DNA from: Campylobacter sp.
GTDB taxonomy: Bacteria; Campylobacterota; Campylobacteria; Campylobacterales; Campylobacteraceae
Assembly: GCA_022775765.1 (NCBI GenBank)
Contig: JALFKC010000038.1
Coordinates: forward strand, 1 to 33,310
Length of the DNA: 33,310 nucleotides
Direction: 5' to 3'
In this document: piece by piece, positions 4,377 through 28,062 of the stretch
How the letters are laid out: the number at the start of each line of letters is the position of its first letter
Numbering within the stretch: the first letter of the stretch is position 1
The notes under the pieces: generated by a model
What the model was told of the DNA's origin: nothing
The model's database searches: none
The model's input: only the letters and a program-made list of their open reading frames with translations
Translations under genes and position numbers: made by a program

Positions 4377-4409
4377 AGCTCATCCTTTCTAAAAAAATTA
4401 TCATCTTAT

Positions 4410-4415
4410 ATTATA
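4410..4415 (-). promoter_or_regulatory. -10 box of the lipoprotein gene
   Basis: TATAAT on the minus strand lies 34 bases before the ATG. No convincing -35 box is seen, which is common for Campylobacter sigma70 promoters. Confidence 0.5.
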
Positions 4416-4499
4416 CTAGAAATTGATAAATTTGTTTAAATATTTATTTGTAGCAAAATAGTGTTAAATTTACTTGGGAATTTGAGATGAGAATTTTAT

Positions 4500-4522
4500 T
4501 ATGGCTTCTAAAAGAAGCCATA
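4500..4522 (-). terminator. hairpin after ppk2
   Basis: A 10-bp perfect stem (TATGGCTTCT at 4500-4509, AGAAGCCATA at 4513-4522) with a 3-base loop starts a few bases past the ppk2 stop codon. The following U-tract is short and interrupted, so termination may be partial. Confidence 0.65.
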
Positions 4523-4525
4523 AAT

Positions 4526-5353
4526 TTACTCTATCTTATAATCTTTTTTAAGAGTTTCAAGATCTGGGATATTTGGCAATATTTTCGCCATTTCAAGCCC
4601 TTTTTCTTCTACTGATTTTACTATATCTTCATCAGTTTTTAGATACTTTTTATCGCATTTATCTTTGTAGTCAATGCTATTTAATATACATTTGATAGTG
4701 TTTATTCTAGCTTTTTTCTTATTGTTTGCGTCGATTATAGTCCAAGGAATTTTGTCTGTATGCAAAAACATATTGTATTGAGCGACTGAGTATTCATTCC
4801 AAAGCTCTTGAGCTTTTTCATCCACTGGCGAGAGCTTATAGTTTTTTAGTGGATTTTTCCTGCGCTCTTCAAAGCGTTTTTCTTGAGTTTTTTTGTTAAT
4901 ATCAAGGAAAAATTTATAGATTTTTATCCCAGATCTAGAAATAAGCTCTTCAAAAAATGGCACCTCTTCTAAAAATTCCTTGGTTTGTTCTACTGTGCAA
5001 AAGCCCATAACAGGCTCAACCACAGCCCTGTTATACCAACTTCTATCAAAAATCACTATCTCACCAGCACTTGGTAAATATGAAGTATATCTTTGAAAAT
5101 ACCACTGGGTTACTTCCACATCGCTAGGTTTTGGAAGCGCTATGACATTGCAACCGCGTGGGTTTAGGTGCTCTCTTATGCGTTTTATGGTGCCACCTTT
5201 GCCAGCTGCGTCTCTACCCTCAAAAAGTATTAAAATCTTAAGACCTTCTTGTTTGACATAATACTGCAATTTAAGTAGCTCAATTTGCAAATTTCTAAGC
5301 TCTTCTTTGTAGCTTAACTTTTTAGCTTTTTTGTCATTTTTTTTCTCTGACAT
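4526..5353 (-). CDS. ppk2: polyphosphate kinase 2
   Basis: PPK2 uses inorganic polyphosphate to phosphorylate nucleoside diphosphates (class I; the GTP-forming direction is favoured in characterised enzymes). The 275-residue protein has the family Walker A GRDAAGKGG (residues 46-54), the lid/Walker B region FDRSWYNRAVVEPVMGF, and the basic EERRKNPLKNYKLSPVDEKA stretch. The one-domain length fits class I. Start ATG at 5353 follows AAGGATGAG. It is transcribed divergently from dsbD. As I recall, C. jejuni keeps dsbD, ppk2 and an amidohydrolase side by side, and the same trio occurs here. The charged N-terminal tail (KKNDKKAKK) is not conserved in the family. Confidence 0.95.
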   Translation of the reverse strand: MSEKKNDKKAKKLSYKEELRNLQIELLKLQYYVKQEGLKILILFEGRDAAGKGGTIKRIREHLNPRGCNVIALPKPSDVEVTQWYFQRYTSYLPSAGEIVIFDRSWYNRAVVEPVMGFCTVEQTKEFLEEVPFFEELISRSGIKIYKFFLDINKKTQEKRFEERRKNPLKNYKLSPVDEKAQELWNEYSVAQYNMFLHTDKIPWTIIDANNKKKARINTIKCILNSIDYKDKCDKKYLKTDEDIVKSVEEKGLEMAKILPNIPDLETLKKDYKIE

Positions 5354-5431
5354 ATCTCATCCTTTAAAGTGTAATAATGTTTACATTCTATAGTTATTTA
5401 TTTTAAAATTTGATTATATTTAGATATTTTA

Positions 5432-5437
5432 TATAAA
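5432..5437 (+). promoter_or_regulatory. candidate -10 box of dsbD
   Basis: TATAAA lies 32 bases before the dsbD ATG, in the AT-rich intergenic region (5354-5469) that must also hold the divergent ppk2 promoter. No -35 box is evident. Confidence 0.4.
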
Positions 5438-5469
5438 ATTGCTACAATTTTACACAAAAAAGGTGCTTA

Positions 5470-7203
5470 ATGCTCAAAAAATTACTACTATTGCTGTCAA
5501 TTTTTGTCTTTTCTTATGGTGAGTATATTGAACCGACTGAAGCTTTTAAGATAAGTTCAAATATACAAAATGACAATATAATTTTTGATTTTCAGATAAA
5601 TGAGAATGTCTATATCTACAAAAAAGATCTAAGTTTTAGTATAAATGGCTCAAAAAACTTGGTTGAATTTGTGAATTTACCAGAAGCAATTTTAAAAGAT
5701 GAGTATAAAATTTACCGAGATGAGCTTGAAATTTCTTTGCCACTTGGGCTTGTGATGGGATACTCTTCGCTTGATAAATTTGAGATCGTCACGGGATTTG
5801 GTGGGTGTGCAAATGATGGATTTTGTTATCCACCACAATTTTATAAATTTGAGTTTTCAAAGTCGCTAAATGGCTATGAAATTCAAAAAATCAAACTTAA
5901 AAATTTACCAAGACAATCTAGTTCAAATTTAGCCCAATCCAGTTCAAATTCCCAAGAAATTATTGCCAAAAATATCAGCTCAAAAAGCATTTGGATAGTG
6001 ATTTTGACATTTTTTGGATATGGAATTTTACTCTCATTCACACCTTGTGTATTGCCGATGATTCCGATACTCTCATCCATCATAGTTTCTAAGTCAAACA
6101 CGCCAAAAAATAGTGCTTTTTTGATAAGTCTCATTTATGTTTTGGGGATGGCTTTGACATATGCTTTAACTGGGGTTGGGGCTGCACTTTTGGGGGCGAG
6201 CCTTCAGGCTATACTTCAAATTCCTATCGTTATAGCACTTTTTTCTTTGATTTTTGTATTTTTGGCATTTAGTATGTTTGGATTTTATAGCATTAGTGTG
6301 CCAGCAGTTTTTCAAAATCGTCTAAAAAATAGCACAAAAAGTGGCTATATAGGCGTATTTGTGATGGGTATTTTATCGGCTTTAATAGTTGGTCCTTGCA
6401 TCGCTCCGCCACTAGCTGGGGCTCTGCTTTATATCGCTCAAAGCAATGATATAATTAGTGGTGCTTTGGCACTCTTTGCGATGGGGCTTGGAATGGGGGT
6501 GCTACTTTTGATGGTTGGAGCTGGATTTAAAAAGTTCGTCCCAAAACCAGGATTTTGGATGAATGAGATTAATAAATTCTTTGGATTTGTGCTTTTATAT
6601 ATGGCAGTTTGGATGATTTCAAGGGTTATTTCACCAAATTTAACGCTTCTTATATACGCACTGCTTTTGTTTGTTTTCGCAAGTTCATTTGGGCTTTTTG
6701 AGAGTGTAAAAGGCGAGTATGACAGGGTCAAAAAAGGCATTTTAGCGTTTATTTTTGTCTATGCGATTTTGCTTATGCTAGGTTTTGCAAGTGGATCAAA
6801 AAGCGTCTTAAAACCGCTTGTTAATTTAAATCTTGGCTTTAATACCGCTCAAACCTTAAATCCACAATTTAAATATATCTCAAATTTAAAAGAGCTCGAT
6901 AAATTTGTCAAAAGCTCTCAAAAACCTGTGATGATAGATTTTTGGGCGACTTGGTGTGTTGAGTGCAAAAAGCTTGATGGTGTAATTGAGAGTAGTGAAG
7001 TGGCAAAAGAGCTTGCTAGATTTGAGCTTGTTAAAGTTGATGTGAGTAAAAATTTACCAGATGACAAGGAGTTGATGAGTAGATTTAATATTTATGGACC
7101 ACCTGCACTAGTGTTTTTTAAAGATACAAAAGAGCTAAAGAATTTGCAAATCACAGGTGCGATTAATAGGGATGAGCTGTTACAAATTCTCTCACAAATT
7201 TAA
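5470..7203 (+). CDS. dsbD: thiol:disulfide interchange protein DsbD
   Basis: DsbD carries electrons from cytoplasmic thioredoxin across the inner membrane to reduce periplasmic thiols (DsbC/DsbG, cytochrome c maturation). All three redox modules are visible in 577 residues. After a signal peptide (about 1-17) comes the N-terminal periplasmic immunoglobulin-like domain with Cys113 and Cys119 (GGCANDGFC). The eight-helix membrane domain follows (about 170-435), with Cys193 in FTPCVLP and Cys310 in GPCIAPP. The C-terminal periplasmic thioredoxin domain has WCVEC (Cys496/Cys499). The start follows AAAAGGTG. A Ser/Asn-rich linker joins the first two domains. The downstream amidohydrolase starts 59 bases later with its own strong Shine-Dalgarno. 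Confidence 0.96.
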   Translation: MLKKLLLLLSIFVFSYGEYIEPTEAFKISSNIQNDNIIFDFQINENVYIYKKDLSFSINGSKNLVEFVNLPEAILKDEYKIYRDELEISLPLGLVMGYSSLDKFEIVTGFGGCANDGFCYPPQFYKFEFSKSLNGYEIQKIKLKNLPRQSSSNLAQSSSNSQEIIAKNISSKSIWIVILTFFGYGILLSFTPCVLPMIPILSSIIVSKSNTPKNSAFLISLIYVLGMALTYALTGVGAALLGASLQAILQIPIVIALFSLIFVFLAFSMFGFYSISVPAVFQNRLKNSTKSGYIGVFVMGILSALIVGPCIAPPLAGALLYIAQSNDIISGALALFAMGLGMGVLLLMVGAGFKKFVPKPGFWMNEINKFFGFVLLYMAVWMISRVISPNLTLLIYALLLFVFASSFGLFESVKGEYDRVKKGILAFIFVYAILLMLGFASGSKSVLKPLVNLNLGFNTAQTLNPQFKYISNLKELDKFVKSSQKPVMIDFWATWCVECKKLDGVIESSEVAKELARFELVKVDVSKNLPDDKELMSRFNIYGPPALVFFKDTKELKNLQITGAINRDELLQILSQI

Positions 7204-15327: not shown

Positions 15328-15771
15328 ATGAAAGTATTACTTATAAAAGATGTAAAAAGTTTGGGTAAAGCAGGGGAAATAAAAGATGTAAAAGATGGCT
15401 ATGGCAATAACTTTTTGATAGCAAAAGGTTTAGCAAAAGCTGCTACCAACGAAGTTATTAGACAGTATGAGGCAAATAAGAAAAAAGAGGCCGAAGAGCT
15501 TAGATACGAGATAGAAAATATCAAAAAATTAGCAAGTGAGCTTAATGACATAAGGGTTATTATCAAAAAACAAGTTGGCGTAAATGACGCACTATTTGGC
15601 TCAGTTACAAAAGATGAAATCTCAAATGCACTCAAAGAGCAAAAAGGCTATGATATCGATAAAAAGCTTCTTGATATAGAGACTGTAAAAACCATAGGAA
15701 TTTACGATGTCAAGGTGAAATTTAAACACGGAATTCAAGGTAAATTTGAGATAAAAGTTGAGGCTGAGTAA
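15328..15771 (+). CDS. rplI: 50S ribosomal protein L9
   Basis: L9 binds 23S rRNA near the L1 stalk and helps keep the reading frame. The 147 residues show the N-terminal RNA-binding domain with [18 protein letters not shown] and the [14 protein letters not shown] signature, a long connecting helix (about 40-75), and a C-terminal domain. AAAGGAGAGAG precedes the ATG, only 15 bases after argG. Its stop codon TAA overlaps the hslV ATG (TAATG). Confidence 0.97.
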
Positions 15772-16313
15772 TGTTTGAAGCGACAACCATACTTGCCTAT
15801 AAGGGCAAAAACGCTTCAGTTATTGGCGGAGATGGGCAGGTTACTTTTGGGCATACAGTTTTAAAAGGAACTGCTACAAAGATACGCAAAATCGGTCAAG
15901 ATGGTAAGGTTTTGGCTGGTTTTGCAGGAAGTACAGCAGATGCGTTTAATCTTTTTGATATGTTTGAGGGGTGTTTAAGCTCAGCCAAAAATGACCTTCT
16001 AAGGGCAGTTATTGAGTTTAGCAAAGAGTGGCGAAAGGATAAATATTTAAGAAAACTTGAAGCTATGATGATAGTCCTTGATAGAAAACATCTGTTTTTA
16101 TTGAGTGGAAATGGCGATGTAGTTGAGCCAGATGATGATAAAATAGTAGCTATTGGAAGTGGTGGAAACTACGCACTTAGTGCGGCTAGAGCACTTGATA
16201 AATTTGGGGCTTTGGATGAGGAAAATCTCGTTAAAGAGAGTCTTAAAATCGCCAGTGAAATTTGTATCTATACAAACTCAAATATCAAAACTTATGTGTT
16301 AAAGGATAATTAA
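15771..16313 (+). CDS. hslV: ATP-dependent protease subunit HslV
   Basis: HslV (ClpQ) is the proteasome-like threonine peptidase that pairs with HslU. The 180 residues match the family throughout: [19 protein letters not shown], the [12 protein letters not shown] helix, and [13 protein letters not shown]. The protein starts MFEATTI rather than MTTI, so the usual Thr nucleophile is residue 5. A short leader would have to be removed, or another residue used, as discussed for Bacillus CodW (MSSFHATTI). The stop overlaps the hslU ATG, so the two subunits are translationally coupled. Confidence 0.95.
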
Positions 16314-17629
16314 TGCTTCTTCCAAAACAGATAGTAAATGAACTTAATAACTATATAATAGGACAAGATGAAGCCAAAAAAGTCATAGCTGTTGCACTTA
16401 GAAACAGATATAGGCGAATGCAGCTTGATGAAAATATGCAAAATGAGATAATTCCAAAAAATATTTTGATGATAGGCTCGACTGGCGTTGGCAAAACTGA
16501 GATAGCTAGGAGACTCTCAAAGCTTTTTGGATTGCCATTTGTAAAGGTTGAGGCTAGTAAATACACCGAAGTTGGCTTTGTTGGTAGGGATGTTGAGAGT
16601 ATGGTTAGAGACCTTGCTATGGCGTCACTAAATTTAGTAAAAAATGAAGAAAAAGAGAAAAACAGAGACAAAATAGATGAGTATGTAGAAAAGATTATCC
16701 TAGAAAAGCTTCTTCCGCCACTTCCAAAAGGGGCGAGTGAAGAGAAGATGGCTGATTATGAAAAAAGCTATCAAAAAATGCTACAAAGGCTAAATAGCGG
16801 ACAGCTTGATAATCTAAATATTGAGATAGAGGTTTCGCAAAGTGCTTTTGAATCAAACCCAAATTTGCCACCTGAGATGGCGAATATGCAAGAGAGTTTC
16901 ATAAAAGTTATAGGAATTTCAAGCAAAAAAGTCAAAAAAGAGCTGCCTATAAAAGACGCTAAAATCGCACTTCAAAGTGAAGCAAGTGATAAAATACTAG
17001 ATATGGAACGAATAAAGCAGGATGCCTTAAAAAGAGCTGAAAATCAAGGCATAATTTTTATAGATGAGATCGATAAAATCGCCGTTGGCTCGTCAAACTC
17101 AAGACAGGACCCAAGCAAAGAGGGCGTGCAAAGAGATCTGCTTCCAATAGTTGAGGGAAGTAGCGTAAATACCAAGCTTGGTGTATTAAACACAGACCAT
17201 ATACTTTTTATTGCTGCTGGAGCTTTTCATATGAGTAAGCCAAGCGATTTAATTCCAGAGCTTCAGGGACGTTTTCCGCTTAGAGTTGAGCTTGATAGCC
17301 TTGATGAAAACGCACTTTTTGAGATACTTTTTAAGACCAAAAACTCACTTCTTAAGCAGTATCAAGCACTTCTTAGTGTTGAGAATATTGAGATTGAGTT
17401 TAGTGAAGATGGTATAAGAAAAATCGCTAAATTTGCAAGTCTTGCAAATGAAAAAATCGAAGATATCGGTGCTAGAAGGCTTCATACTATTATGGAAAAG
17501 CTTCTTGAAGATGTTGGGTATGATGTTGAAAAATACAGTGGCAAAAGTCTAAAAATTGATGCAGAGTTTGTAGAAAATAAGCTTGACGCTGTGGTTTCTA
17601 ATGAGGATTTGGCAAAATATATCTTGTAG
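16313..17629 (+). CDS. hslU: ATP-dependent protease ATPase subunit HslU
   Basis: HslU (ClpY) is the AAA+ hexamer that unfolds substrates and feeds them to HslV. Walker A is GSTGVGKTE (55-63), Walker B FIDEIDKIA, sensor/arginine-finger region ELQGRFPLRVEL, and the pore loop lies near GFVGRDVE. The variable I domain spans about 110-235. The C-terminal tail DLAKYIL is the part that inserts into HslV. 438 residues is normal. It overlaps hslV by one base and is followed 9 bases later by era. Confidence 0.97.
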   Translation: MLLPKQIVNELNNYIIGQDEAKKVIAVALRNRYRRMQLDENMQNEIIPKNILMIGSTGVGKTEIARRLSKLFGLPFVKVEASKYTEVGFVGRDVESMVRDLAMASLNLVKNEEKEKNRDKIDEYVEKIILEKLLPPLPKGASEEKMADYEKSYQKMLQRLNSGQLDNLNIEIEVSQSAFESNPNLPPEMANMQESFIKVIGISSKKVKKELPIKDAKIALQSEASDKILDMERIKQDALKRAENQGIIFIDEIDKIAVGSSNSRQDPSKEGVQRDLLPIVEGSSVNTKLGVLNTDHILFIAAGAFHMSKPSDLIPELQGRFPLRVELDSLDENALFEILFKTKNSLLKQYQALLSVENIEIEFSEDGIRKIAKFASLANEKIEDIGARRLHTIMEKLLEDVGYDVEKYSGKSLKIDAEFVENKLDAVVSNEDLAKYIL

Positions 17630-17638
17630 GATAAATTT

Positions 17639-18514
17639 ATGGAGACAAAAAGTGGTTTTGTATCTTTAATTGGTAGGACAAATAGTGGCAAAAGCAGTCT
17701 GATAAACTATCTTGTGAGGGAAAATTTATGTATGGTCTCTCATAAGATAAATGCCACTAGACGCAAGATTACTGGCATTGTAATGCATGATAAAACTCAG
17801 ATAATCTTTACTGACACACCAGGACTTCACAAAAGCTCTAAAATTATGAATCAAACTATGATCGAGCTTGCCATAAAGTCAATCGGTGATGCGGATTTAG
17901 TGCTTTTTGTTAGTTCGGTTAGCGATGATACTAGAGATTATGAAGAGTTTTTGTCTAAATTTAGCAGTGTTAATCATCTACTAATTTTGAGTAAAATCGA
18001 TACAGTTAATAAAGAATTTTTGTTTAAAAAGATGCAAAGTTATTCTAAATTTAGTAGTTATTATAAAGGTCTTATCCCACTTAGTATCAAAAAACAAGCC
18101 TATAGAAAAATTTTGTTAGGTGAGATAAGCAAATATATACCACAAAATGAGTATTATTACCCACCTGATTTGATAAGTGCGACAAACTCAAAAGAAATTT
18201 ATAGAGATTTAATCTTGCAAGCGGTGTATGAATCAGTAAGTAGTGAGATTCCATACTCAACAGATGTTATTATAAATAAAGTTGTAGAAAAACCAAATCA
18301 TATACTTATTGTAGCTGATATTATAACTGATAGTGATTCTAAAAAAAGCATACTGATTGGCAAAGATGGGGTAGCTATAAAAAGAGTTGGAATTAGGGCT
18401 AAAAAATTGATTGCAGCATTTGAGAATTTAAAAATTTCCATAAATTTACGCGTTTTAACAAAAAAAGGATGGAATAGTAATGAAAATTTAATAAAAAGAG
18501 AGTTTATATATTGA
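17639..18514 (+). CDS. era: GTPase Era
   Basis: Era is an essential GTPase that binds the 3' end of 16S rRNA and assists 30S maturation. The 291 residues show G1 GRTNSGKSS (12-20), the effector region HKINATRRKITGI, G3 DTPGLH, G4 in the form SKID instead of NKxD, and a C-terminal KH domain with ILIGKDGVAIKRVGIRAKK. The substituted G4 appears usual for Campylobacter Era (I recall TKVD in C. jejuni). AGGA precedes the ATG. It ends the argG-to-era run, 75 bases before the transformation genes; no strong terminator lies between, so read-through is possible. Confidence 0.95.
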   Translation: METKSGFVSLIGRTNSGKSSLINYLVRENLCMVSHKINATRRKITGIVMHDKTQIIFTDTPGLHKSSKIMNQTMIELAIKSIGDADLVLFVSSVSDDTRDYEEFLSKFSSVNHLLILSKIDTVNKEFLFKKMQSYSKFSSYYKGLIPLSIKKQAYRKILLGEISKYIPQNEYYYPPDLISATNSKEIYRDLILQAVYESVSSEIPYSTDVIINKVVEKPNHILIVADIITDSDSKKSILIGKDGVAIKRVGIRAKKLIAAFENLKISINLRVLTKKGWNSNENLIKREFIY

Positions 18515-18589: not shown

Positions 18590-20119
18590 ATGGCAAAGGA
18601 AAATAAAAGTTTATCTATTGTGGTTATCAATAGAATAAAAGGCAAAGCGTATAAGTTGCAAAATAATAGGTTTTTTGCTTTTGACCTTGAGAAGGCAAAA
18701 AGCGATAGAGAGTTTTACATCTCTTATATAACTAATAAAGATGTAATGACTGCTAGTATTGTGGTTCCAAAGACAACGCCACCAGAAGAGATGGATGATG
18801 TTATTGTGGTTAAGACCTATGAAGAGTTAGGTCTTGATACCGCACTTGATTATAAGATAGTCTATTCTCAGTCTCAAAATGAGTCCCCAGAAAGTCTGTT
18901 TTTTAATGTTTTTGTTACCAATAATGATATAGTAGCAAATGACCTATCTCCAATAGTTGCCAACACCGAGTATATAGATTATTTAGCATATTCGCCATTT
19001 TTGATGAGAGCACTTTATCAAAGAGGAATTTTAACTGCAAATAATGTTGATGAGTGCTTTATATATTTGCAAAGAAATGACGCATTTTTGGTAGTTTATA
19101 GAAATGGTGAGTATTTTCAGTCTAGATCGCTTAGATTTAATCTAAAATATCTCTGCGATAAATTTTCTGAAATAAGTGGCAATAGAGTTACTGAAGATGA
19201 TTTTAATGCTATGCTTAAAAAAGATGGCATAAATCTTGAAAATCCGGCTGAGAGAGACTATATAATTCAAATTTTTGATGATCTGTTTTTTTATGTAGGT
19301 GATGTAATTACTAGTATTAATAAAATTTACAAAACAAATATCAAAAATATCTATTTTGGCACTGACATTGGCAATATTAAAGGTGTTGAAATTTTTATCC
19401 AAGATAGACTTGGGCTTGAATATAAATCATTTGAGTTCAATATAGCTCTAAACACTAAAGAATTTGATGATATTACTCAGCTTGATATGCTGATGGTGCT
19501 TACAGCTCAAGCTTATTTGAATGAGCTTGATGATGAGTTTAACTTCTCAATGTTTCTTAGGCCACCGCCATTTTCTCAAAGAACTAGTGGAAGGCTTTTG
19601 ATGGCAATGTTGGCAGGGGCTGCGATAGGCTTTGCATATCCAGGTTTTCAGTTTGCATATGGCTACATAAATGAGATGCAAACCAATAAAAAGACTGAAG
19701 AGTATAACATAGCTCACGCTGAAGAGACGAGAATTAAATCTGCTATTGAAGCTTTAGAAAAACAGATAGCTCAAACAAACGAAGACACTGCAAAACAAGG
19801 AGAGCTTTTGCAAGATAAAGAGAATAAACTTACAAGTATTTTCAATAAAAAAGTCAATTATCCTATGAAAGGATTTGCGATTTATGATATGACTAATTTT
19901 GTAAATAATCAAGATGGTAATCTTATAGCATTAAGTAGCAAGGATAATAATATAACTTTTACTGTCAATACCAAAACAGACAAAAAAATGACTGAGCTTT
20001 TAAAAGAGATAAGTACCTCTGGCAAATACTCTGTCGCTACTAAAATTATTCATAATAGTGACAAAAATGCCACTAGAAGTGATAAGTATGAGAGTAATAT
20101 TACATTGGAGATATTGTGA
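18590..20119 (+). CDS. PilM-PilN fusion (GspL/MshI-like) of the transformation system
   Basis: First gene of the DNA-uptake operon. The 509-residue protein reads as a fused assembly-platform component. Residues about 1-330 resemble the actin-like PilM/GspL cytoplasmic domain (EYIDYLAYSPFLMRALYQRG, DAFLVVYRNGEYFQSRSLRF, IYFGTDIGNIKGVEIF). A single membrane helix follows (about 338-360, LLMAMLAGAAIGFAYPGF). The rest is a periplasmic coiled coil (about 365-415) and a PilN-like ferredoxin-type domain. In type IV pili, PilM and PilN are separate; in type II secretion, GspL joins them. The role would be to couple the ATPase CtsE to the periplasmic frame. Assignment is by architecture and position; sequence similarity to named members is weak by eye. 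Confidence 0.75.
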   Translation: MAKENKSLSIVVINRIKGKAYKLQNNRFFAFDLEKAKSDREFYISYITNKDVMTASIVVPKTTPPEEMDDVIVVKTYEELGLDTALDYKIVYSQSQNESPESLFFNVFVTNNDIVANDLSPIVANTEYIDYLAYSPFLMRALYQRGILTANNVDECFIYLQRNDAFLVVYRNGEYFQSRSLRFNLKYLCDKFSEISGNRVTEDDFNAMLKKDGINLENPAERDYIIQIFDDLFFYVGDVITSINKIYKTNIKNIYFGTDIGNIKGVEIFIQDRLGLEYKSFEFNIALNTKEFDDITQLDMLMVLTAQAYLNELDDEFNFSMFLRPPPFSQRTSGRLLMAMLAGAAIGFAYPGFQFAYGYINEMQTNKKTEEYNIAHAEETRIKSAIEALEKQIAQTNEDTAKQGELLQDKENKLTSIFNKKVNYPMKGFAIYDMTNFVNNQDGNLIALSSKDNNITFTVNTKTDKKMTELLKEISTSGKYSVATKIIHNSDKNATRSDKYESNITLEIL

Positions 20120-20814
20120 TGAAAAATAGAATTTTAGATAAAATTGATGAGTATTTTTTAGGAAAAGCACCTAAAGAAATAAAAATGTATATAGGACTAG
20201 GTGGTCTTGTGTGTGCTGGACTTATGTATCTTGCTTTTTCAGCTCAATCACAGGATTATTTTGAGACTAGTCAAAGTAATCTCAATAATATAACTCAAAA
20301 ATTAAATGAAACAAATACCTATTTGTCAGACCCAAAAATAAGTGGCCCAAATGGTGACGATATGGAATTTGGTATTAATCAAAAAAAACAAGCCTTAAAC
20401 TCTGCTAAAATTTCACTTGAAGAGCATATTGATGCTAATAGGTATTTTGATGGAAAGTTGGCTGAAGTTTCGAGTGTAACATATAACGAAAAGAACTGGG
20501 CTAAATTTTTGGATATGCTTACAACTATTGCTCAAAGAGAAAATATTAAGGTTTTTGCTATAAAATCAGAGACAAAAGTTCCTGAAATAGGTAAAGTCCA
20601 GCAAGTTTTAAATAGTAGGGTTCAAATAGCTGGGAATTTTGCTAATATGCTAAGATATATTAATGGTATAGAGGAGTCAAATATGGTTGTGGATATTAAC
20701 GGCCTTGATTTAAACTCAACTGATGGTGAGCTTTTTGGAACTATAGATTTGACCCTGTGGGGCATAAGATATGGGTATAACTCAGGTAATGCTTCTGTAA
20801 GTAGTGTTAATTGA
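20119..20814 (+). CDS. PilO/GspM/MshJ-like inner-membrane protein
   Basis: The 231-residue protein has a short cytoplasmic N-terminus, one membrane helix (about 25-42, IGLGGLVCAGLMYLAF), a coiled-coil stretch (about 50-110), and a C-terminal alpha/beta domain. This is the PilO/GspM architecture. PilO pairs with PilN to form the periplasmic part of the alignment complex linking platform and secretin. ATG 20119 overlaps the previous stop (TGATG) and has GGAG 8 bases upstream; GTG 20116 is less likely. Position between the PilM/N fusion and the PilP-like gene supports the call. Confidence 0.75.
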   Translation: MKNRILDKIDEYFLGKAPKEIKMYIGLGGLVCAGLMYLAFSAQSQDYFETSQSNLNNITQKLNETNTYLSDPKISGPNGDDMEFGINQKKQALNSAKISLEEHIDANRYFDGKLAEVSSVTYNEKNWAKFLDMLTTIAQRENIKVFAIKSETKVPEIGKVQQVLNSRVQIAGNFANMLRYINGIEESNMVVDINGLDLNSTDGELFGTIDLTLWGIRYGYNSGNASVSSVN

Positions 20815-20824
20815 AAGGTTTAAT

Positions 20825-21217
20825 ATGAAAAAAATAGTATTTTCTTTGTTTGCTTTAAGTTTAGTTCTTTTTGGTGCTGAAATTATAGATAGGCAACATT
20901 ATGATAGGATATTTAATCAACTAAATGCAGGTAGAGTTGGTCTTAGTCCTGAACAGATTGCCTCTCTTAAAAATCCGTTTCCAATGTCTTTGAAAAAGTC
21001 TATTTCAGAGGATAGCAATTCAACTGGATATACTCTTTATGGAATTTTTGCAAATAGAGCAAAGATAAACGATGCGTGGTATGAGATCGGGGATGAGTTT
21101 GGTGGTTATGAGTTAAAAGAAGTTAAAAATAAAAGTGTGATTTTACAAAATGATACACAACAAATTGAATTAAAATTAAATCAAGGAAAGAAAAATGTTA
21201 CAGTTTCATATAAATAA
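20825..21217 (+). CDS. ctsR: PilP/MshK-like periplasmic protein, probable CtsR
   Basis: The 130-residue protein has a signal peptide (MKKIVFSLFALSLVLFGA) and a small beta-rich C-terminal domain (YTLYGIFANRAKINDAWYEI, then VKNKSVILQNDTQQIELKL). That matches the PilP/GspC/MshK homology region that links the inner-membrane complex to the secretin. It sits right before the secretin gene, as pilP and mshK do. The small C. jejuni protein before CtsD is called CtsR; I assign the symbol by position. ATG 20825 follows GAAAGG; the upstream in-frame GTG at 20804 would spoil the signal peptide. Its 3' end overlaps the secretin start by 23 bases. Confidence 0.7.
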   Translation: MKKIVFSLFALSLVLFGAEIIDRQHYDRIFNQLNAGRVGLSPEQIASLKNPFPMSLKKSISEDSNSTGYTLYGIFANRAKINDAWYEIGDEFGGYELKEVKNKSVILQNDTQQIELKLNQGKKNVTVSYK

Positions 21218-22823
21218 AAAACTAAAAATCTTTAGTATGGCTTTGGTTTTGGGTCTATGTGTTTCTTCATTGCAGGCTAACAATTGTGATAGAAGAGCTC
21301 TTAGTATGCAAATAGATAACGCAGCAACCATAAATGAGGTTTTAACTCAACTATCAAATGTTTGTAGTTTTAGCACGGTTGCAAAAGATGCTTTGGCAAC
21401 ACAAGAAATGGAAAGAGTTATTAGTGGGGTTAATATTAAAGACAAAACTCTAAATCAGATTTTTGAAATTATACTTACAAAAAATAATCTTAACTATGAA
21501 TTTCGCGACAATGTTTTAACTATCTCTGGTCTTTTTACAAAAACTTTTAAAATCGATTATATCCCATCTGTAAGAGAGGCTAGTGCAATTACTAGATCAT
21601 CAGTAACTTCAAGACCGATATCGATTGATGATGCTGAAACGACCGAAGGTGAAAAATCGGATAATGAGATTGTAACTACTGAGAATTTTGATTTTTGGAG
21701 TACCATTAGTGAAGAGATAACTTTGGTGCTAAATAATGGAACTGAAAATTATGCTGCAGTTGCACCTATTATCAATAGAAATGCTGGACTTGTCACGGTA
21801 ACAGCAACTAAATCACAACTAAATAGGGTAGAAAAGTATGTAAATGAACTTCATAATAGACTTCAAAAACAGGTTATGCTCGATGTTTCTATTATAGCTG
21901 TTGATCTTCACAATACTTACACTACAGGAATTGATTGGAGCAAATTTGAGCTTGGCTTTAATACATATTTAAATGGCAATCCAGATACACCAAGCAGATT
22001 TAGCTTTGGAAATAGATACGAGACTCCTCTTGTCAGCCAAGCTGCACAATATCAAGATTTTAAGATTGGTAAAGATGCTCAAGGTAATGATATTACAATA
22101 ACAAGGATGACAATGCCAGAGAGATATGAATGGGGTAATATCATGAGTACAAAAGCAAGCGATGCTCTTGGAACTTGGGCAATAGGAGCAAATCTTAATT
22201 TTAATATCAATGGTATGATAAATTTCCTTGAGACAAAAGGTAAAACAAAAGTTATCTCAAGTCCTAAAATTGTTACTTTACATAATCAGCCAGCTCTTAT
22301 CTCGGTAGGAACAAACCTAAATTATCTTCTTTTAGAATCTCAAAAAACTGGAACTGGAACAGATACAACTACAGATATTGACACAGAGCAATACACCTCT
22401 TTTGTTGGAATTTTGCTTAATATATTACCTCAAATTTCAGATGATGGTAAAATAATGCTTAGAGTTAATCCATCAATAAGTGAACTTGTTAACGAAGAAG
22501 ATAAATATATACCAAAAGGTGCTGCAAGAAATGTTGCTCCTGATACTTATGAGAAAAAATTATCAACCGTCGCTTATGTTAACGATGGAGACACTGTAAT
22601 TATAGGTGGTCTTATTAGTCAAAAAAATGGAAAGAACAATACAAATGTTCCGGTTTTAAGTTCTATACCGCTACTTGGAAAACTGTTTAAAAGTTCAGAA
22701 GATATACTATCGGTTACTGAACTTGTATTTGTTATAACACCAAGACTTGTTAACGCTCCTAAACCTATGAGTGAGTCTTTAAAAGAACTTGGATATTCTA
22801 AATCAACATATGAAGAATACTAA
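21195..22823 (+). CDS. ctsD: secretin CtsD (MshL/GspD-like), transformation system
   Basis: CtsD forms the outer-membrane channel through which the transformation pseudopilus and DNA pass. The 542-residue preprotein has a signal peptide (about 1-28). An N-terminal STN/N0 domain follows (GVNIKDKTLNQIFEIILTKN, NLNYEFRDNVLTI), then a domain with VTVTATKSQLNRVEKYVNEL. The secretin barrel domain has KVISSPKIVTLHNQPALISV, VNDGDTVIIGGLIS and TELVFVITPRLV. The long N-domain arrangement and the phrase KQVMLDVSIIAVDLHNTYTT are close to MSHA-type secretin MshL. No lipobox was seen, so a pilotin dependence is unclear. Starts inside the ctsR 3' end (GGAAAG upstream). Confidence 0.92.
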   Translation: MLQFHINKKLKIFSMALVLGLCVSSLQANNCDRRALSMQIDNAATINEVLTQLSNVCSFSTVAKDALATQEMERVISGVNIKDKTLNQIFEIILTKNNLNYEFRDNVLTISGLFTKTFKIDYIPSVREASAITRSSVTSRPISIDDAETTEGEKSDNEIVTTENFDFWSTISEEITLVLNNGTENYAAVAPIINRNAGLVTVTATKSQLNRVEKYVNELHNRLQKQVMLDVSIIAVDLHNTYTTGIDWSKFELGFNTYLNGNPDTPSRFSFGNRYETPLVSQAAQYQDFKIGKDAQGNDITITRMTMPERYEWGNIMSTKASDALGTWAIGANLNFNINGMINFLETKGKTKVISSPKIVTLHNQPALISVGTNLNYLLLESQKTGTGTDTTTDIDTEQYTSFVGILLNILPQISDDGKIMLRVNPSISELVNEEDKYIPKGAARNVAPDTYEKKLSTVAYVNDGDTVIIGGLISQKNGKNNTNVPVLSSIPLLGKLFKSSEDILSVTELVFVITPRLVNAPKPMSESLKELGYSKSTYEEY

Positions 22824-23652
22824 CAACGACTATACTCTTATAAAAGATATATTCATAGAAAATGGTGAATCTGGTGATTTTGTCAATCTTGATAAGTCAA
22901 GATTGGCTTATCATAGAATTGTGAGTGCACTTCAAAAACCACTCAAACTTATACTTTTTTATGGTAAGCCAGGAAGTGGCAAGACCTTTTTGCTCAATAA
23001 AATCAAGCTTGACCTTGATAAAAAGCTAAAAGTCGTATTTTTGCCACAACCATTTTTTGATGAAGAAGAGTTTTTTATGGAAGTTTATAGACAAATTTTT
23101 GCTACTATGCCAAAAACTAAACTCGCTGATTATGCGACATTTATTCGTATCTATAAACAGATGCTTGAACTTGATAGTAATAGTAGTCTCAATGTTGATA
23201 AGGTAGTGATTTTGCTTGATGAGGCTCAACTTTATCCTGTAAATTTGATAGAAAAAATTAGGCTTATGGCTGATACTAGACTTTTTAAATTTCTTTTTAC
23301 AGTTCATAAAACTGACGAAGAGGATGTATTGGCAAAAGATTATTTTAAAACTAGAATTTGGGAAAGTATTGAGCTTCCAAACTCTAATCTAAATGAACTT
23401 AAGCTTTATATAGAAAAAAAGCTTCTTTTTCATAAATTTCATAATTATTTTATGATGTATGATGATAAGAATTTTGATCTCATCTATGAACTTACGGATG
23501 GAAATTTAAGAAACTTAAATAAATTGCTGTATAAATTATACGAACTATTTGAATATTATGAATTATACCAACCTACAAATATTAATCCGGTTGGTATCAA
23601 TCATAAATATATAGAGATGGCGGCAATAAGTGCAGGATTAATCAATGCTTGA
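22810..23652 (+). CDS. ctsP: AAA ATPase CtsP (ExeA/MshM-like)
   Basis: The 280-residue P-loop protein has Walker A YGKPGSGKTFLLNKI and Walker B VVILLDEAQLYP, with a helical C-terminal lid (DGNLRNLNKLLYKLYELF). Family members ExeA and MshM are AAA ATPases at the inner membrane that help place or assemble the secretin. In C. jejuni, CtsP is required for natural transformation and was reported to work with membrane protein CtsX. I start at ATG 22810, which overlaps the secretin gene by 14 bases; an in-frame TTG at 22789 is the alternative and has no better ribosome-binding site. It lacks any peptidoglycan-binding domain found in ExeA. Confidence 0.88.
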   Translation: MKNTNNDYTLIKDIFIENGESGDFVNLDKSRLAYHRIVSALQKPLKLILFYGKPGSGKTFLLNKIKLDLDKKLKVVFLPQPFFDEEEFFMEVYRQIFATMPKTKLADYATFIRIYKQMLELDSNSSLNVDKVVILLDEAQLYPVNLIEKIRLMADTRLFKFLFTVHKTDEEDVLAKDYFKTRIWESIELPNSNLNELKLYIEKKLLFHKFHNYFMMYDDKNFDLIYELTDGNLRNLNKLLYKLYELFEYYELYQPTNINPVGINHKYIEMAAISAGLINA

Positions 23653-24514
23653 ACATTATGAAGTTGTAGAGCTTGAAAAAAAGTGGGAAAATTATACTAA
23701 ATCCAAAACTAAAGATGGTTTTTTACAAAAAATAAATGAATTTGCCAAGCAAAATATGGATAAAACAGTGATAATTTTACTTTGCATAATCGCTGTTGGT
23801 GCTGGGGCTATAGTTTGGTTGATGGGTTCAAAAGACGGCGAAGTTGCACAAGCTTTAGAAGCAAATTCAACTATAATATCTTCTGCACTAGAAGCAACCC
23901 CTGAAACGACAAAAAAGAGTGCTATTGTAGAGACAAATTTAACAGCAAATCAAGAGATTGGCGAATCTTTTTCATACCCTAGAGCCTCATTGCAACTCAA
24001 CGATATAGGTATCAGTTCAAGTGTCGATAGCGGTGGTTTTACTATAAATAATACATATAATGCAGATAGTGCTAACTCATCTCAAAACCCAGGCGTTATG
24101 TCAGATAGTGAGTTTATTGATTTTGGCAACGCCCCTAATCCACCAAGAACAAAAATAGGTTCTAATACGCCTAGAATTTCTAAACCAAATATTCAAATTA
24201 CCTCTAAAAATTTAAGTAGAGCCAATCAAACTTTAGAAGATAAATTTAATCAAACTAAAGATATAGCAATATCTTTAGAGCTTTCGCAACAAGCTTATGA
24301 TAGGGCTAATTATACTGAAGCAATAAAATGGGCTCTTGTATCAAATGAGATTGATAAAAACAATGTTAAAAGTTGGGTTTTGTTTGCTAAGTCAAATTAT
24401 AAATTAGGTAGAAAAAATGATGCGATAGTTGCACTTCGTTCACTCAATCAAAGGCTTCCAAATCCTGAAATTTTAGAACTTTTAAATCAAATGCAAACAG
24501 GAGCTTTCCAATGA
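23645..24514 (+). CDS. ctsX: bitopic membrane protein with TPR-like C-terminus (MshN-like, probable CtsX)
   Basis: The 289-residue protein has a cytoplasmic N-terminus (about 1-37), one membrane helix (about 38-60, TVIILLCIIAVGAGAIVWLM), and a long Ser/Asn/Pro-rich periplasmic linker (about 65-190). A C-terminal helical region looks like two or three tetratricopeptide repeats (YDRANYTEAIKWALVSNEID, SWVLFAKSNYKLGRKNDAIV). The same plan and position (after the ExeA-like ATPase) is found in MshN. C. jejuni CtsX is a membrane protein needed for transformation and encoded between ctsP and ctsE; the symbol is assigned by order and topology. It overlaps ctsP by 8 bases and the next gene by 4. Confidence 0.72.
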   Translation: MLEHYEVVELEKKWENYTKSKTKDGFLQKINEFAKQNMDKTVIILLCIIAVGAGAIVWLMGSKDGEVAQALEANSTIISSALEATPETTKKSAIVETNLTANQEIGESFSYPRASLQLNDIGISSSVDSGGFTINNTYNADSANSSQNPGVMSDSEFIDFGNAPNPPRTKIGSNTPRISKPNIQITSKNLSRANQTLEDKFNQTKDIAISLELSQQAYDRANYTEAIKWALVSNEIDKNNVKSWVLFAKSNYKLGRKNDAIVALRSLNQRLPNPEILELLNQMQTGAFQ

Positions 24515-25059
24515 AAAAACTATTTTTATTGACATTTATATTATTTGGTCTATCTTTTGGTGATGAAGTGAATGTTTATGATGTCAAAGATTGGCATAAT
24601 GCTGGTCAATACACTAGAATTTGTAGCGATAAAGTAAGAGACCTTTTTATAAAAGAGCAAAATGATTCAGTTGCTAATATGTATGCCTTTTCTTGTCTTA
24701 AGCTTGATAAAATAAACGAGCTTGTCATCCCTATAGTTATGCTTTACAAAGACAGAGCTAGCAGAGAAAATGCAAGTATCTATTCAACTATTCTTTTTCA
24801 AAAAAAGATGCTATATTACGCTCTTGTGGATGGTGCTGATATTAGTTATATAAGAACTCCAAAGGTTGAATATATACTCTCTTATATTTTTGATAAATTT
24901 GTTACTAAGGATTATGATAAAAAAGATGATAAATATCTTTTTGATTTAGGAGAAAATAACCGCTGTGAAGTTTATGTTAAAGATGACAATTCAACCAAGC
25001 AGATGGTGTTTGATATTTACAATGCCAATAAACTTATGGCGACAAAAATTTTTTGGTAA
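24511..25059 (+). CDS. uncharacterised periplasmic protein of the transformation operon
   Basis: I do not recognise this 182-residue protein. It has a clear signal peptide (MKKLFLLTFILFGLSFG), then a mainly helical mature part with three Cys (in TRICSD, FSCLKL and NRCEVY). It ends with a short beta-rich section (CEVYVKDDNSTKQMVFDIYN). No membrane helix, lipobox or known motif was seen. The start overlaps the ctsX stop (ATGA) and ctsE follows 16 bases later, so it is made with the transformation apparatus. It has no counterpart in the msh gene order. A guess is a periplasmic accessory of the machine. Confidence 0.8.
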   Translation: MKKLFLLTFILFGLSFGDEVNVYDVKDWHNAGQYTRICSDKVRDLFIKEQNDSVANMYAFSCLKLDKINELVIPIVMLYKDRASRENASIYSTILFQKKMLYYALVDGADISYIRTPKVEYILSYIFDKFVTKDYDKKDDKYLFDLGENNRCEVYVKDDNSTKQMVFDIYNANKLMATKIFW

Positions 25060-25075
25060 TTGGTAAGGTGTGAGT

Positions 25076-26827
25076 ATGGTTTTAGAAGAAAATGACAAAC
25101 ATATACTAAAAACTCTTATAAAACAGGGCAAACTAGAAAAAGCTCAAGTTCCTGAAATCGCTGAAAAGATTGAGATAGGACTTACTTTGTCTGAGGTGCT
25201 TATAGGGGATAACTATATATCGCAAGAAGAGTATGCAGGGTTATTTTTTGAAGATTATAGACGTTCAAGGATAACCCTTGAAGAGCTAAATGAAAATTAT
25301 AATTTAGACAAAAAGGTCTTTTTGAGTGCATTTGCAAAATCAAATAAAATGCTCTATATGGATATTGATTCTGAGAAAGTTGATTATAGAATTTCAGAAA
25401 AACTCTCAGCCGTCCAACTCAAAAAATTAGGAGCTTTTCCAGTTAGAGAAGATGAAATTTCAGTTTATGTAGCTTTTAAAAATCCATTTGACCTTGAAGC
25501 TCAAGATAGAGTTCAAACTATGTTTAGCAAAAAATTGCTAAAAGTAGTTATGTCTGAAGAAGATCAGATAGAAAAATATCTTTTAAAGCTAGAACTTGCT
25601 GAAAGTATAAAAGATGTGGTTGCTGAGATTAGAAAAGAGCTTACCGCCACAAGCGGTGGAGACCAAAATGAAAACTCAGGTATTTTGCAACTAATTGAGA
25701 TTATAGTCAAACAGTCAATCGTCTCAAGGGGAAGTGATATTCATATTGAGCCAACAGAGACCAACTGCGTAGTTAGAACTAGAATTGATGGCATGCTAAC
25801 AGAGATGTTTATCTTTGATAGGGATATCTATCCACCACTTGTTTCAAGGCTGAAACTACTATCAAATATGGATATTTCAGAACGCAGAAAACCTCAAGAT
25901 GGTCGTTTTACACTTAAAGTTGTGGATAAAGAGTATGATTTTCGTATTTCAACTCTACCTATATTAAATGGCGAAAGTATCGTTATGAGAATTTTGGATA
26001 AATCAAAGATTCTTATTACTCTTGAAAAGCTTGGAATGCACCCAAAAAGCTTTGAGAGATTTACTAAAGCGATGAAAGCCCCATATGGTATTATTCTTGT
26101 AACTGGCCCAACAGGTAGTGGTAAAACTACAACGTTATATGCCGCACTCAACGATATAAAAAGTGTCGCAAGCAAGATTATCACGGTTGAAGACCCAGTT
26201 GAGTATCAGCTAAATATGATTCAACAAGTCCATGTTAATGAAAAAGCTGGCCTTACATTTGCCTCAGCACTTCGTTCTATCCTAAGGCAAGACCCTGATA
26301 TTATAATGATTGGTGAGATTAGAGATCAAGAAACGCTTCGTATCGCTATACAAGCTGCACTTACAGGACACCTTGTGTTTTCTACGCTTCACACAAACGA
26401 CGCAATAAGTGCGATACCAAGGATGTCAGATATGGGGATTGAGAGCTATTTAATAAGTGGATCTGTTATAGCGATAGAGGCTCAAAGGCTTGTTAGAAAG
26501 CTCTGTCCGCACTGCAAAACCGCTACTGTTTTACCTAAGCATTTGCTAGAACAAGTCAAAGATTATCTTCCATCAACTTATACATTTTACAAGGCAAATG
26601 GTTGTGAGTATTGTTCTGGGACTGGGTATTCTGGGCGTGAGATGATAAGTGAGATTTTAACTATTTCAGATCATCTTCAAAGTCTTATAGCTCAAGGAGC
26701 ACCAAAAGATGAGATGAAAAGAGTAGCTTATGAAGAGGGCTTTATAGATATGTTTCACGATGGGGTGCTAAGGGCTGCAAAAGGCGTAACTAGTATAGAA
26801 GAAATTTATAGGGTGGCTAAAGAATGA
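25076..26827 (+). CDS. ctsE: assembly ATPase CtsE (GspE/PilB/MshE family)
   Basis: CtsE is the hexameric cytoplasmic ATPase that drives pseudopilus assembly for DNA uptake. The 583 residues include an N-terminal MshEN/GspE_N-type region (about 1-150), the Asp-box region, Walker A GPTGSGKTTTLYAAL (about 344-358), Walker B IIMIGEIRDQETL, the His box (TGHLVFSTLHTNDA), and a tetracysteine zinc site (CPHC about 477, CEYC about 515). ATG 25076 is chosen over GTG 25070 because AAGG (25065-25068) lies 7 bases before it. The next gene ctsF overlaps the stop (ATGA). Confidence 0.95.
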   Translation: MVLEENDKHILKTLIKQGKLEKAQVPEIAEKIEIGLTLSEVLIGDNYISQEEYAGLFFEDYRRSRITLEELNENYNLDKKVFLSAFAKSNKMLYMDIDSEKVDYRISEKLSAVQLKKLGAFPVREDEISVYVAFKNPFDLEAQDRVQTMFSKKLLKVVMSEEDQIEKYLLKLELAESIKDVVAEIRKELTATSGGDQNENSGILQLIEIIVKQSIVSRGSDIHIEPTETNCVVRTRIDGMLTEMFIFDRDIYPPLVSRLKLLSNMDISERRKPQDGRFTLKVVDKEYDFRISTLPILNGESIVMRILDKSKILITLEKLGMHPKSFERFTKAMKAPYGIILVTGPTGSGKTTTLYAALNDIKSVASKIITVEDPVEYQLNMIQQVHVNEKAGLTFASALRSILRQDPDIIMIGEIRDQETLRIAIQAALTGHLVFSTLHTNDAISAIPRMSDMGIESYLISGSVIAIEAQRLVRKLCPHCKTATVLPKHLLEQVKDYLPSTYTFYKANGCEYCSGTGYSGREMISEILTISDHLQSLIAQGAPKDEMKRVAYEEGFIDMFHDGVLRAAKGVTSIEEIYRVAKE

Positions 26828-28062
26828 AAAAGATAGAAGTTGATTACAAAAACAAAAACCAAAAACAAAGAATATATCTTAAATCAAGCAGTAGATATAG
26901 CAGTAGAAGTTTGCAAAAAAAAGGTTCTTTTGTAAAAGCTCAAGAGACTCAAAATTTAACTCTAGGTGAGCAATTTAGCGACCTTGGAGTTAAAGTTAGT
27001 AGGCTTTTGGGTGTTGGTGATAAGGTTAAAATTCCAAATTTAGTGGCTTCCATAAGGCAACTTTCAGTTATGACAAATGCTGGAATTTCTATCCACGATA
27101 GTATCAAAGAGGTCGCAGCTTCAACTGAAGATAGGGTTTTAAAAGGTATCTTCTCGACTATGAATGACGACTTAAATGCTGGTTTAAGTTTAACCGAATC
27201 TACCAATAAATTTAGAAATCAATTAGGTGACCTTACTATCTCGATGATAAGCCTTGGTGAAAACACTGGTAATATGGCTGAATCTTTGCAAAAGCTCTCG
27301 GCTATGCTTCAAGAGGTTTGGGATAATCAGCAAAAGTTCAAAAAAGCTATGCGATATCCGATAGTAATTTTGGTTTGTTTGGCTATAGCTTTTACGATTT
27401 TGATGCTTTTTGTTGTACCACAATTTAGAGAAATTTTTGAAGAGTTGGGAGCAAATCTGCCTTTGCCGACCAAGATTTTACTTAATATAGAGTATGTGAT
27501 GAGTCATTATGGACTTTATGTTTTGGGTGCTTTGATTTTGGGAATTTACCTGCTTGTTAGAGCATATAAAAATAGTGATAGTTTTAAGATGGGTTTTGAT
27601 AAAGGAATACTTAAAGTTTATCTTTTTGGCAAGATTGTCTACTATTCAACTATGGCAAGATTTAACCTAATATTCACTGAACTTGTAAAAGCTGGCGTTC
27701 CTATAGCTGACGCATTAGATACTGCGATAATGATGGTTGGAAACACTGAGATTAAGTTTAAACTCTCAACTGTCAAGGCTTCTGTTGAACAAGGTGTGAG
27801 TATAACTGACGCACTTAAAAATACTGGACTTTATGAGAGTATGCTTATTCAGATGGTAAGTGCTGGTGAGCAAAGTGGTAGCTTAGATAAAATGCTTGGA
27901 AATGTAAGTGATTATTTTAAGATGAGATTTGATGAGATTATTGATAATATCTCAAGCTATATTGAGCCTATACTTTTGCTTTTTATGGCTGGTATGGTTT
28001 TACTTTTAGCACTTGGTATATTTATGCCTATGTGGGATTTAGGAAGTGCTGTTAAAAACTAA
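26824..28062 (+). CDS. ctsF: inner-membrane platform protein CtsF (GspF/PilC/MshG family)
   Basis: CtsF is the polytopic platform around which the pseudopilus is built, in contact with CtsE. The 412-residue protein has the two repeated GspF domains: the first around 75-195 (LVASIRQLSVMTNAGISIHD, MISLGENTGNMAESLQKLS), the second around 285-400 (FNLIFTELVKAGVPIADALD, MVSAGEQSGSLDKML). Three hydrophobic helices lie near 175-200, 220-245 and 380-405. The N-terminal 40 residues are unusually basic and Ser-rich. It is the last gene before a strong terminator, which closes the operon. Confidence 0.95.
   Translation: MKKIEVDYKNKNQKQRIYLKSSSRYSSRSLQKKGSFVKAQETQNLTLGEQFSDLGVKVSRLLGVGDKVKIPNLVASIRQLSVMTNAGISIHDSIKEVAASTEDRVLKGIFSTMNDDLNAGLSLTESTNKFRNQLGDLTISMISLGENTGNMAESLQKLSAMLQEVWDNQQKFKKAMRYPIVILVCLAIAFTILMLFVVPQFREIFEELGANLPLPTKILLNIEYVMSHYGLYVLGALILGIYLLVRAYKNSDSFKMGFDKGILKVYLFGKIVYYSTMARFNLIFTELVKAGVPIADALDTAIMMVGNTEIKFKLSTVKASVEQGVSITDALKNTGLYESMLIQMVSAGEQSGSLDKMLGNVSDYFKMRFDEIIDNISSYIEPILLLFMAGMVLLLALGIFMPMWDLGSAVKN

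Follow-up and report, generated by a model that had tools for sequence, protein, structure and literature searches.

Between ctsX and ctsE, in an operon of a Campylobacter sp. that resembles those of MSH pili and of natural transformation, lies a gene for a protein of 182 amino acids, here called Q182. The protein is widespread and unnamed, has a plausible partner, and belongs as a subunit to a machine of known type. The reading that we favour, with confidence that stands about midway, is that Q182 is the periplasmic third member of a CtsP-CtsX module and probably helps to place, assemble or hold the secretin CtsD. The partnership with CtsP and CtsX is read from gene linkage, while binding to CtsX, help to the secretin and a role in transformation are what we infer.

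The Q182 gene and its operon

The window, that is the whole stretch of DNA that was analysed, comprises 33,310 nucleotides of contig JALFKC010000038.1. Q182 is encoded by the ORF at 24511-25059 (+), which starts with ATG and lies within the following cluster.

18590..20119, +, probable PilM-PilN fusion, assigned by position (Pfam gave nothing significant)
20116..20814, +, PilO/GspM-like protein (weak T2SSM match, below cut-off)
20804..21217, +, CtsR, PilP/GspC/GspB-like (weak T2SSB and GspC matches, below cut-off)
21195..22823, +, CtsD secretin (NCBIfam MshL TIGR02519, 263.5 bits, cut-off 250.2)
22789..23652, +, CtsP, MshM-ExeA-like AAA ATPase of 287 amino acids (AAA_22, 39.1 bits)
23645..24514, +, CtsX, MshN-like, with a single membrane segment between its N-terminus and the TPR part (ANAPC3-type, 29.7 bits)
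24511..25059, +, Q182, putatively exported protein of 182 amino acids: leader about 1-20, predicted TPR-like helical domain about 22-131 and curved beta meander 136-181
25070..26827, +, CtsE, MshE-type assembly ATPase (T2SSE 449 bits, MshEN 46.8 bits)
26824..28062, +, CtsF, platform protein (T2SSF 174.6 bits)

The start of Q182 overlaps the stop of ctsX by 4 nt and is preceded by its own AGGAG motif, 7 nt upstream. The next gene 3' is ctsE, at a distance of 10 nt (listed GTG) or 16 nt (ATG 25076), in agreement with an earlier note on this DNA which had described the gene as translationally coupled to a CtsX/MshN-like gene and directly before ctsE. The listed start of ctsE is the GTG at 25070, and the ATG at 25076, with an AAGG motif 7 nt upstream, is the likelier one. 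Immediately upstream of the operon, at 15771-18514 of the window, are hslV-like (Proteasome), hslU-like (AAA_2) and Era-like (MMR_HSR1 and KH_2) genes.

Q182 is a real gene under protein-level constraint, because 12 other genomes of its genus conserve it at 52-60% identity, with an excess of third-position differences. It was matched at E ≤ 0.001 in 13 of 14 genomes of the same genus, the window's own included; internal stops are absent from the 12 other copies, and codon differences amount to 0.44-0.54 at third positions against 0.22-0.26 at second positions in all six comparisons. The sole genome of the genus without Q182 (G009) has probably lost the whole system, since CtsP was unmatched there and the secretin match was weak (E 2.4e-5).

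With an MshL-type secretin, an MshE-type ATPase and a platform protein the cluster is of the MSH/cts type, and an ExeA/MshM-like ATPase and a TPR membrane protein stand between secretin and ATPase, in the order mshL-M-N-E. MSH systems have been reported earlier in Epsilonproteobacteria (in passages of PMC6668835), and in most pilMNOPQ clusters of Campylobacterota pilM and pilN are fused, as stated in part of PMC11870540. The order of secretin, ExeA-like ATPase, TPR protein, assembly ATPase and platform protein is the same in the Vibrio cholerae MSHA operon (mshL-mshM-mshN-mshE-mshG), where mshN and mshE carry, in the text available of PMC4624765, the consecutive numbers VC0404 and VC0405, which leave no place for Q182. 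The Campylobacter jejuni cts operon (ctsR, D, P, X, E, F) shares genes, order and a TPR-bearing CtsX with the window. The window operon can be called transformation-type by likeness and by analogy may serve in transformation; the functions of the C. jejuni cts genes should not be copied onto it.

CtsX and the operons resembling that of C. jejuni

The neighbour of Q182 had already been taken for a CtsX/MshN-like gene, and this is borne out by locus L078, which has the same gene lengths as C. jejuni, for which Table 3 in the portion available of PMC8308473 gives ctsP 202, ctsX (cj1472c) 195 and ctsE 519 amino acids under consecutive locus numbers. The single gene between CtsP and CtsE in L078 also encodes 195 amino acids and matches the window gene at 23645, not Q182. 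Since this gene is ctsX-sized, the gene at 23645 is, by sequence match, the CtsX/MshN-like one, and Q182 comes in addition to it, ahead of ctsE.

Four intact operons of the C. jejuni-like kind were read (L077-L080, their species deduced from gene lengths); in these CtsX stands directly against CtsE and there is no Q182, and operons of the G018, G031 and G039 types are likewise without it. The C. jejuni-like CtsE differs from that of the window (40-42% identity in the four loci) and occupies a long separate branch. A single-sequence search matched Q182 in 48 of 120 genomes of the family, none of which bears the genus code of the C. jejuni-like operons. Its absence from the C. jejuni-like operons read means that DNA uptake in Campylobacter does not in general require Q182, and the earlier proposal of a missing piece of the Campylobacter uptake machine is wrong or at least unsupported. 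The C. jejuni-like operons (L077-L080 and L187) also have a shortened CtsP and CtsX, CtsP being of 202 amino acids in L078 against 287 in the window; L187 gave no CtsP match, and two ORFs make up its secretin.

A constant place between CtsX and CtsE

An ortholog search at the same position gave CtsX before and CtsE after Q182 in 39 of 41 named loci, while in the other two (L112 and L129) the contig ends on one side of the gene; the named locus L138 has an extra ORF before CtsE. The earlier note knew of no counterpart in pilus or T2SS loci, yet numerous genera of the Campylobacterota carry Q182 in this very position. A scattered occurrence unlinked to cts genes, which the earlier note would have counted against a role in the machine, is not the pattern seen, and the minority of copies found elsewhere (8 of 38) comes from the order-level loci, which are biased towards oddity.

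All 20 loci of the family that were picked for Q182 show CtsP, CtsX, Q182 and CtsE, L089 (genome G102) with an extra ORF before CtsE; in L089 CtsF is fragmented over three ORFs and CtsE has an ORF of only 464 amino acids, and this is probably a decaying operon. The order-level loci were chosen for spread and oddity, the second batch of 20 for oddity, and CtsX-Q182-CtsE was found in 24 of the 38 (14/18 in the first batch, 10/20 in the second). Six others carry a CtsP-CtsX-Q182 trio without adjoining secretin or CtsE (1/18 and 5/20) and eight copies lie away from cts genes (3/18 and 5/20).

Among 105 distinct operons extending from secretin to CtsE, 72 carry Q182 and 33 do not. Pieces without both secretin and CtsE, with CtsE below 480 amino acids, with runs of N or with a CtsE already seen are excluded from this set, and four loci with a secretin and no CtsE on the piece (L186, L191, L192 and L199) lie outside the operon counts. 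Each of the 72 operons with Q182 also has CtsP and CtsX, and in 71 the order is CtsX-Q182-CtsE with no ORF in between. Both CtsP and CtsX are present in 25 of the 33 operons without Q182 and one or both went undetected in eight, where absence means that no ORF matched the profile and a broken or diverged frame would look alike; an earlier count over 99 operons, five duplicate loci having been dropped, gave 66, 25 and 8. These company counts are non-random and give no rate, 20 family loci without Q182 having been fetched for CtsP and 20 for Q182. Where Q182 is missing, CtsX abuts CtsE with a gap of -11 to 113 nt (19/19 measured), and in L181, L182, L184, L185 and L189, from three groups, CtsE directly follows the secretin and CtsP, CtsX and Q182 are missing as a block, the other operon genes being retained. 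Of two genomes with two operons each, Sulfurospirillum sp. UBA6810 has Q182 in both copies (L119 and L140) and G122 in one only (L161, L194); in either genome the two cts-type operons belong to different branches.

Mapped onto a CtsE tree, Q182 has to appear or disappear 11 times, with at least 9 of these changes on well-supported, starred branches, against 28.2 for shuffled labels; the tree was made with FastTree and has long branches (L187, L077 and others), such that 11 is approximate and gain and loss are not distinguishable on it. Repeated loss is the simpler reading than repeated gain, because the place of Q182 is constant. This record of change speaks for a serious rival, to which we give a low but real probability, namely that Q182 is dispensable for building the filament and acts as an accessory, adjusting some use of it that is specific to a lineage (retraction, choice of substrate, or ligand sensing by a beta cup). 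Consistent with this, the C. jejuni-like, G018-, G031- and G039-type operons manage without the protein, V. cholerae keeps its pili without mshM or mshN (see below), and the beta meander of the Q182 model aligns with half of an FABP-type barrel (Z 5.8, rmsd 1.7, 48 aligned). A Z of 5.8 lies, however, in the range of common arrangements, Foldseek gave no match at E ≤ 0.001 to either the whole model or the beta domain alone, and there is no known ligand.

Two comparisons bear directly on the choice of partner. Independent pairs on the CtsE tree, of which about two of nine go together and seven show no difference, include too few informative ones and are far from significance for a link with CtsP and CtsX. 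Distance correlation does not discriminate, the partial r given CtsE and CtsF being 0.23 for CtsX, 0.30 for CtsP and 0.22 for the secretin, and CtsX is not singled out.

A proposed third member of the CtsP-CtsX module

Because Q182 occurs always with both CtsP and CtsX in the operons read, it is probably the third part of this pair. Both ctsX and ctsP are reportedly required for natural transformation of C. jejuni, and their products are said to interact in a two-hybrid test, the N-terminus of CtsX being cytoplasmic and its C-terminus periplasmic. In the mechanism that we propose, the ATPase CtsP would act by way of CtsX, a membrane protein with a TPR domain that would lie in the periplasm, and Q182, exported beside CtsX, would most likely bind this periplasmic TPR region. 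Together the three proteins would probably place, assemble or hold CtsD in the envelope, as ExeA-ExeB do for ExeD.

Binding to CtsX and help to the secretin are proposed because ExeA-ExeB are needed for the assembly of ExeD, which ExeB binds directly (PMC4098917), and because MshN is homologous to TadD, itself needed for the Tad secretin (in passages of PMC6668835). GspA/GspB (ExeA/ExeB) of the T2SS are an ATPase and a partner acting on the secretin, as PMC4098917 describes, and CtsP and CtsX, which agree with MshM and MshN in place and type, may be their functional equivalents. The likeness is incomplete: ExeA binds peptidoglycan (same source), whereas the Pfam families of CtsP are of the ATPase type only, among the matches listed; CtsX is a TPR protein, unlike GspB/ExeB; and T2SSB (GspB/ExeB) neither matched the window Q182 at E ≤ 1 nor is among the 15 Pfam families matched by 35 members. 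Moreover, deletion of mshM or mshN in V. cholerae did not lower surface MshA pili, according to the text available of PMC4624765, and for this reason the CtsP-CtsX module may be dispensable for secretin assembly.

The role of the MshM-MshN or CtsP-CtsX pair is poorly understood, given that ctsX and ctsP are involved in C. jejuni transformation (stated in part of PMC10046745), whereas loss of mshM or mshN leaves V. cholerae able to make pili. Q182 is conserved in many Campylobacterota, has a confident predicted fold and does not occur in those C. jejuni-like operons that were read, and so offers a direct way to ask what the pair does.

The Q182 protein

The N-terminus of Q182 has an evident Sec-type leader, MKKLFLLTFILFGLSFG-DEV, read by eye, which suggests export to the periplasm. 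Of the secreted 182-residue protein with three cysteines described earlier, the length and the leader stand, and two of the cysteines at positions 38, 62 and 152 are conserved (C38 in 34/34 alignment rows that reach the site and C62 in 35/35), whereas the third is not. Across 35 diverse members the residues that never vary include C62, R85, N87, K98, K99, D107, P117 and S124, and C38 and C62 may form a disulfide. A class III leader such as type IV pilins and pseudopilins have (a G/E motif before the hydrophobic helix) was not found by eye in the alignment.

The protein is indeed uncharacterised, as had been noted, in that no Pfam or NCBIfam family matches the window Q182. Across the 35 members Pfam gave weak matches only, to 15 families, the commonest being ANAPC3 (6/35, best E 0.026), and no TPR match rose above the gathering score; a sequence search of the PDB with Q182 returned two chance rows only. 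The AlphaFold2 model (pLDDT 95, pTM 0.85) has helices up to residue 131 followed by a beta meander, which reached a pLDDT of 92 when modelled alone. In VIA the helical part aligned with Tah1 (Z 8.2, rmsd 2.9, 77 aligned) and with MamA (Z 8.1, rmsd 2.3, 75 aligned), both within the range of common arrangements. Most matches to the helices are TPR proteins, and most of those to the beta part are sheets of FABP-type, Pur-alpha and coat proteins; for the beta part the FABP-type half barrel is the best match and not a significant one. The predicted fold is a TPR-like helical domain joined to a curved beta meander, and its TPR likeness may be that of a common arrangement only.

The TPR-like model brings to mind the pilotins PilF/PilW and TadD, small TPR-like proteins of secretin machines, as Q182 may be too. 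Q182 could accordingly be the secretin helper itself, similar to a pilotin but soluble and without a lipid anchor; it would then bind CtsD directly and its linkage to CtsP and CtsX would be incidental, an alternative that we consider doubtful. Some pilotins contain a disulfide, which the conserved C38 and C62 could form, and the distance correlation of Q182 is about as strong for the secretin as for CtsX. Q182 differs from the TPR pilotins, however, in its additional C-terminal meander, in having no sequence-family match and in the absence of a lipobox pattern from all 34 rows with an N-terminus, one pattern match being a contig-edge fragment; pilotins are not among the fold matches listed. 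Furthermore, 33 of the 105 operons keep a secretin and have no Q182, and all six CtsP-CtsX-Q182 trios described below have no adjoining secretin.

As a small exported protein in a transformation-type setting Q182 also resembles a ComEA-type DNA receptor, and periplasmic DNA-handling was one half of the function guessed in the earlier note. ComEC is present in 120/120 genomes of the family, which has no discriminating value, and weak Pur-alpha and PC4-like fold rows occur for the beta domain, none of them significant. Against such a role, the net charge varies among the 35 members from -5 to +15 (0 in the window protein), a helix-hairpin-helix (ComEA-like) is not among the 15 Pfam families matched and no other DNA-binding family rises above chance in Pfam. 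Q182 is, besides, missing from the C. jejuni-like operons read and occurs where secretin and CtsE do not adjoin. That Q182 handles incoming DNA is, to our minds, the least probable of the explanations considered, and secretin gating or assembly is the closer half of the earlier guess.

Trios without a secretin and copies elsewhere

The strongest hint that Q182 belongs with CtsP and CtsX, rather than with the secretin, may be seen in the trio loci. In 6/6 loci read (L167, at 4142-6616, and L201-L205), all from one Sulfurospirillaceae-like genus of family f20, CtsP, CtsX and Q182 lie together with no adjoining secretin or CtsE, and the genes overlap by 8-14 nt (CtsP-CtsX) and 4 nt (CtsX-Q182). 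The genus is so called because G138, from which L167 comes, has a CtsE that clusters on the tree with a Sulfurospirillaceae record (by title; support 90, not starred). The full operon of G138, elsewhere in the genome (L180), has CtsP and CtsX and not Q182.

Upstream of the trio, on the same strand, all six loci have a FliL-like gene, detected with a profile made from the single L167 protein, which alone was compared with Pfam (FliL 25.2 bits, cut-off 24.6). It lies within 74 nt of CtsP in four loci; in L202 and L203 about 470 nt and an opposite-strand ORF intervene, for which reason the FliL-like gene and the trio need not be one operon. An unnamed gene for 169-183 amino acids usually precedes the FliL-like gene (5/6 loci).

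The trio could indicate that CtsP-CtsX-Q182 is a general envelope-placement unit, also at work at flagella or elsewhere, and that Q182 serves this unit and not the cts machine. The FliL-like gene and the copies away from cts genes in families f15, f16 and f23 agree with this; most Q182 copies read nevertheless sit inside a filament operon, the FliL-like gene may belong to a separate operon in view of L202 and L203, and any flagellar role of the locus is hypothetical. We find so general a unit highly improbable. A more tentative extension of our preferred reading of a third CtsP-CtsX member, possible in our view and still well short of probable, is that the three proteins form a portable envelope module, serving secretin filament machines across Campylobacterota as well as the FliL-associated Sulfurospirillaceae locus, perhaps at the flagellar motor. 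The trio near a FliL-like gene may then connect with the type IV pilus parts recruited into the Campylobacterota flagellar motor, as described in part of PMC11870540. If the module is portable, Q182 would be an unnamed type IV filament subunit whose repeated loss marks machines with a changed use, the DNA-uptake system of C. jejuni being an example.

The copies away from cts genes are L164 (f15), L175 and L214 (f16), and L206-L209 and L171 (f23), their neighbours named here by reading the sequence. In L164 Q182 adjoins a gene read as prfB, in L175 and L214 it is followed by a gene for 236-238 amino acids, read in L175 as cmoA, and in f23 by queC-like genes (L206-L209) or an mnmE-like gene (L171). 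In L171, and probably also in L208 and L209, the gene before Q182 encodes a long protein of low complexity; that of L171 has, by eye only, a CtsX-resembling start with a similar charged motif and then a membrane segment. At least G169, G181 and G205 (f23), together with G212 (f14), match Q182 without matching CtsX, and in G133 the operon (L191) has CtsP and CtsX, no Q182 and no CtsE on the piece, with Q182 copies at two places elsewhere (L164). Because of these genomes the link to CtsX is not universal, and some copies of Q182 seem to work without it.

Distribution across the Campylobacterota

Of 298 genomes sampled from the order, 158 matched an 18-row profile of Q182, spread over 41 of 81 genera, and a 35-row profile found it in 102 of 298 genomes of a phylum sample, every one inside the same order. 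CtsP was found in 90 of the 120 family genomes, in some through short weak stretches only. The scan of named genomes gave 41 Q182 loci, only in records titled as members of the Campylobacterota, by means of a single peptide pattern which does not exclude distant relatives elsewhere. The titles comprise Campylobacter (including C. concisus, C. gastrosuis and C. majalis), Sulfurospirillum, Hydrogenimonas, Sulfurimonas, Sulfurovum and Campylobacterota with less exact names. A search of plasmids gave no match, and no title or abstract start in the open-licence literature, among the matches listed, describes the gene.

One genome, the MAG of Campylobacter sp. RGIG8913 (G080, loci L098 and L101), is labelled as genus g5 and carries a cts operon very close to that of G010, which belongs to the genus of the window. 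Their Q182 proteins differ at 1 of 179 residues, and G080 is probably a mixed MAG or, otherwise, the recipient of a recent transfer.
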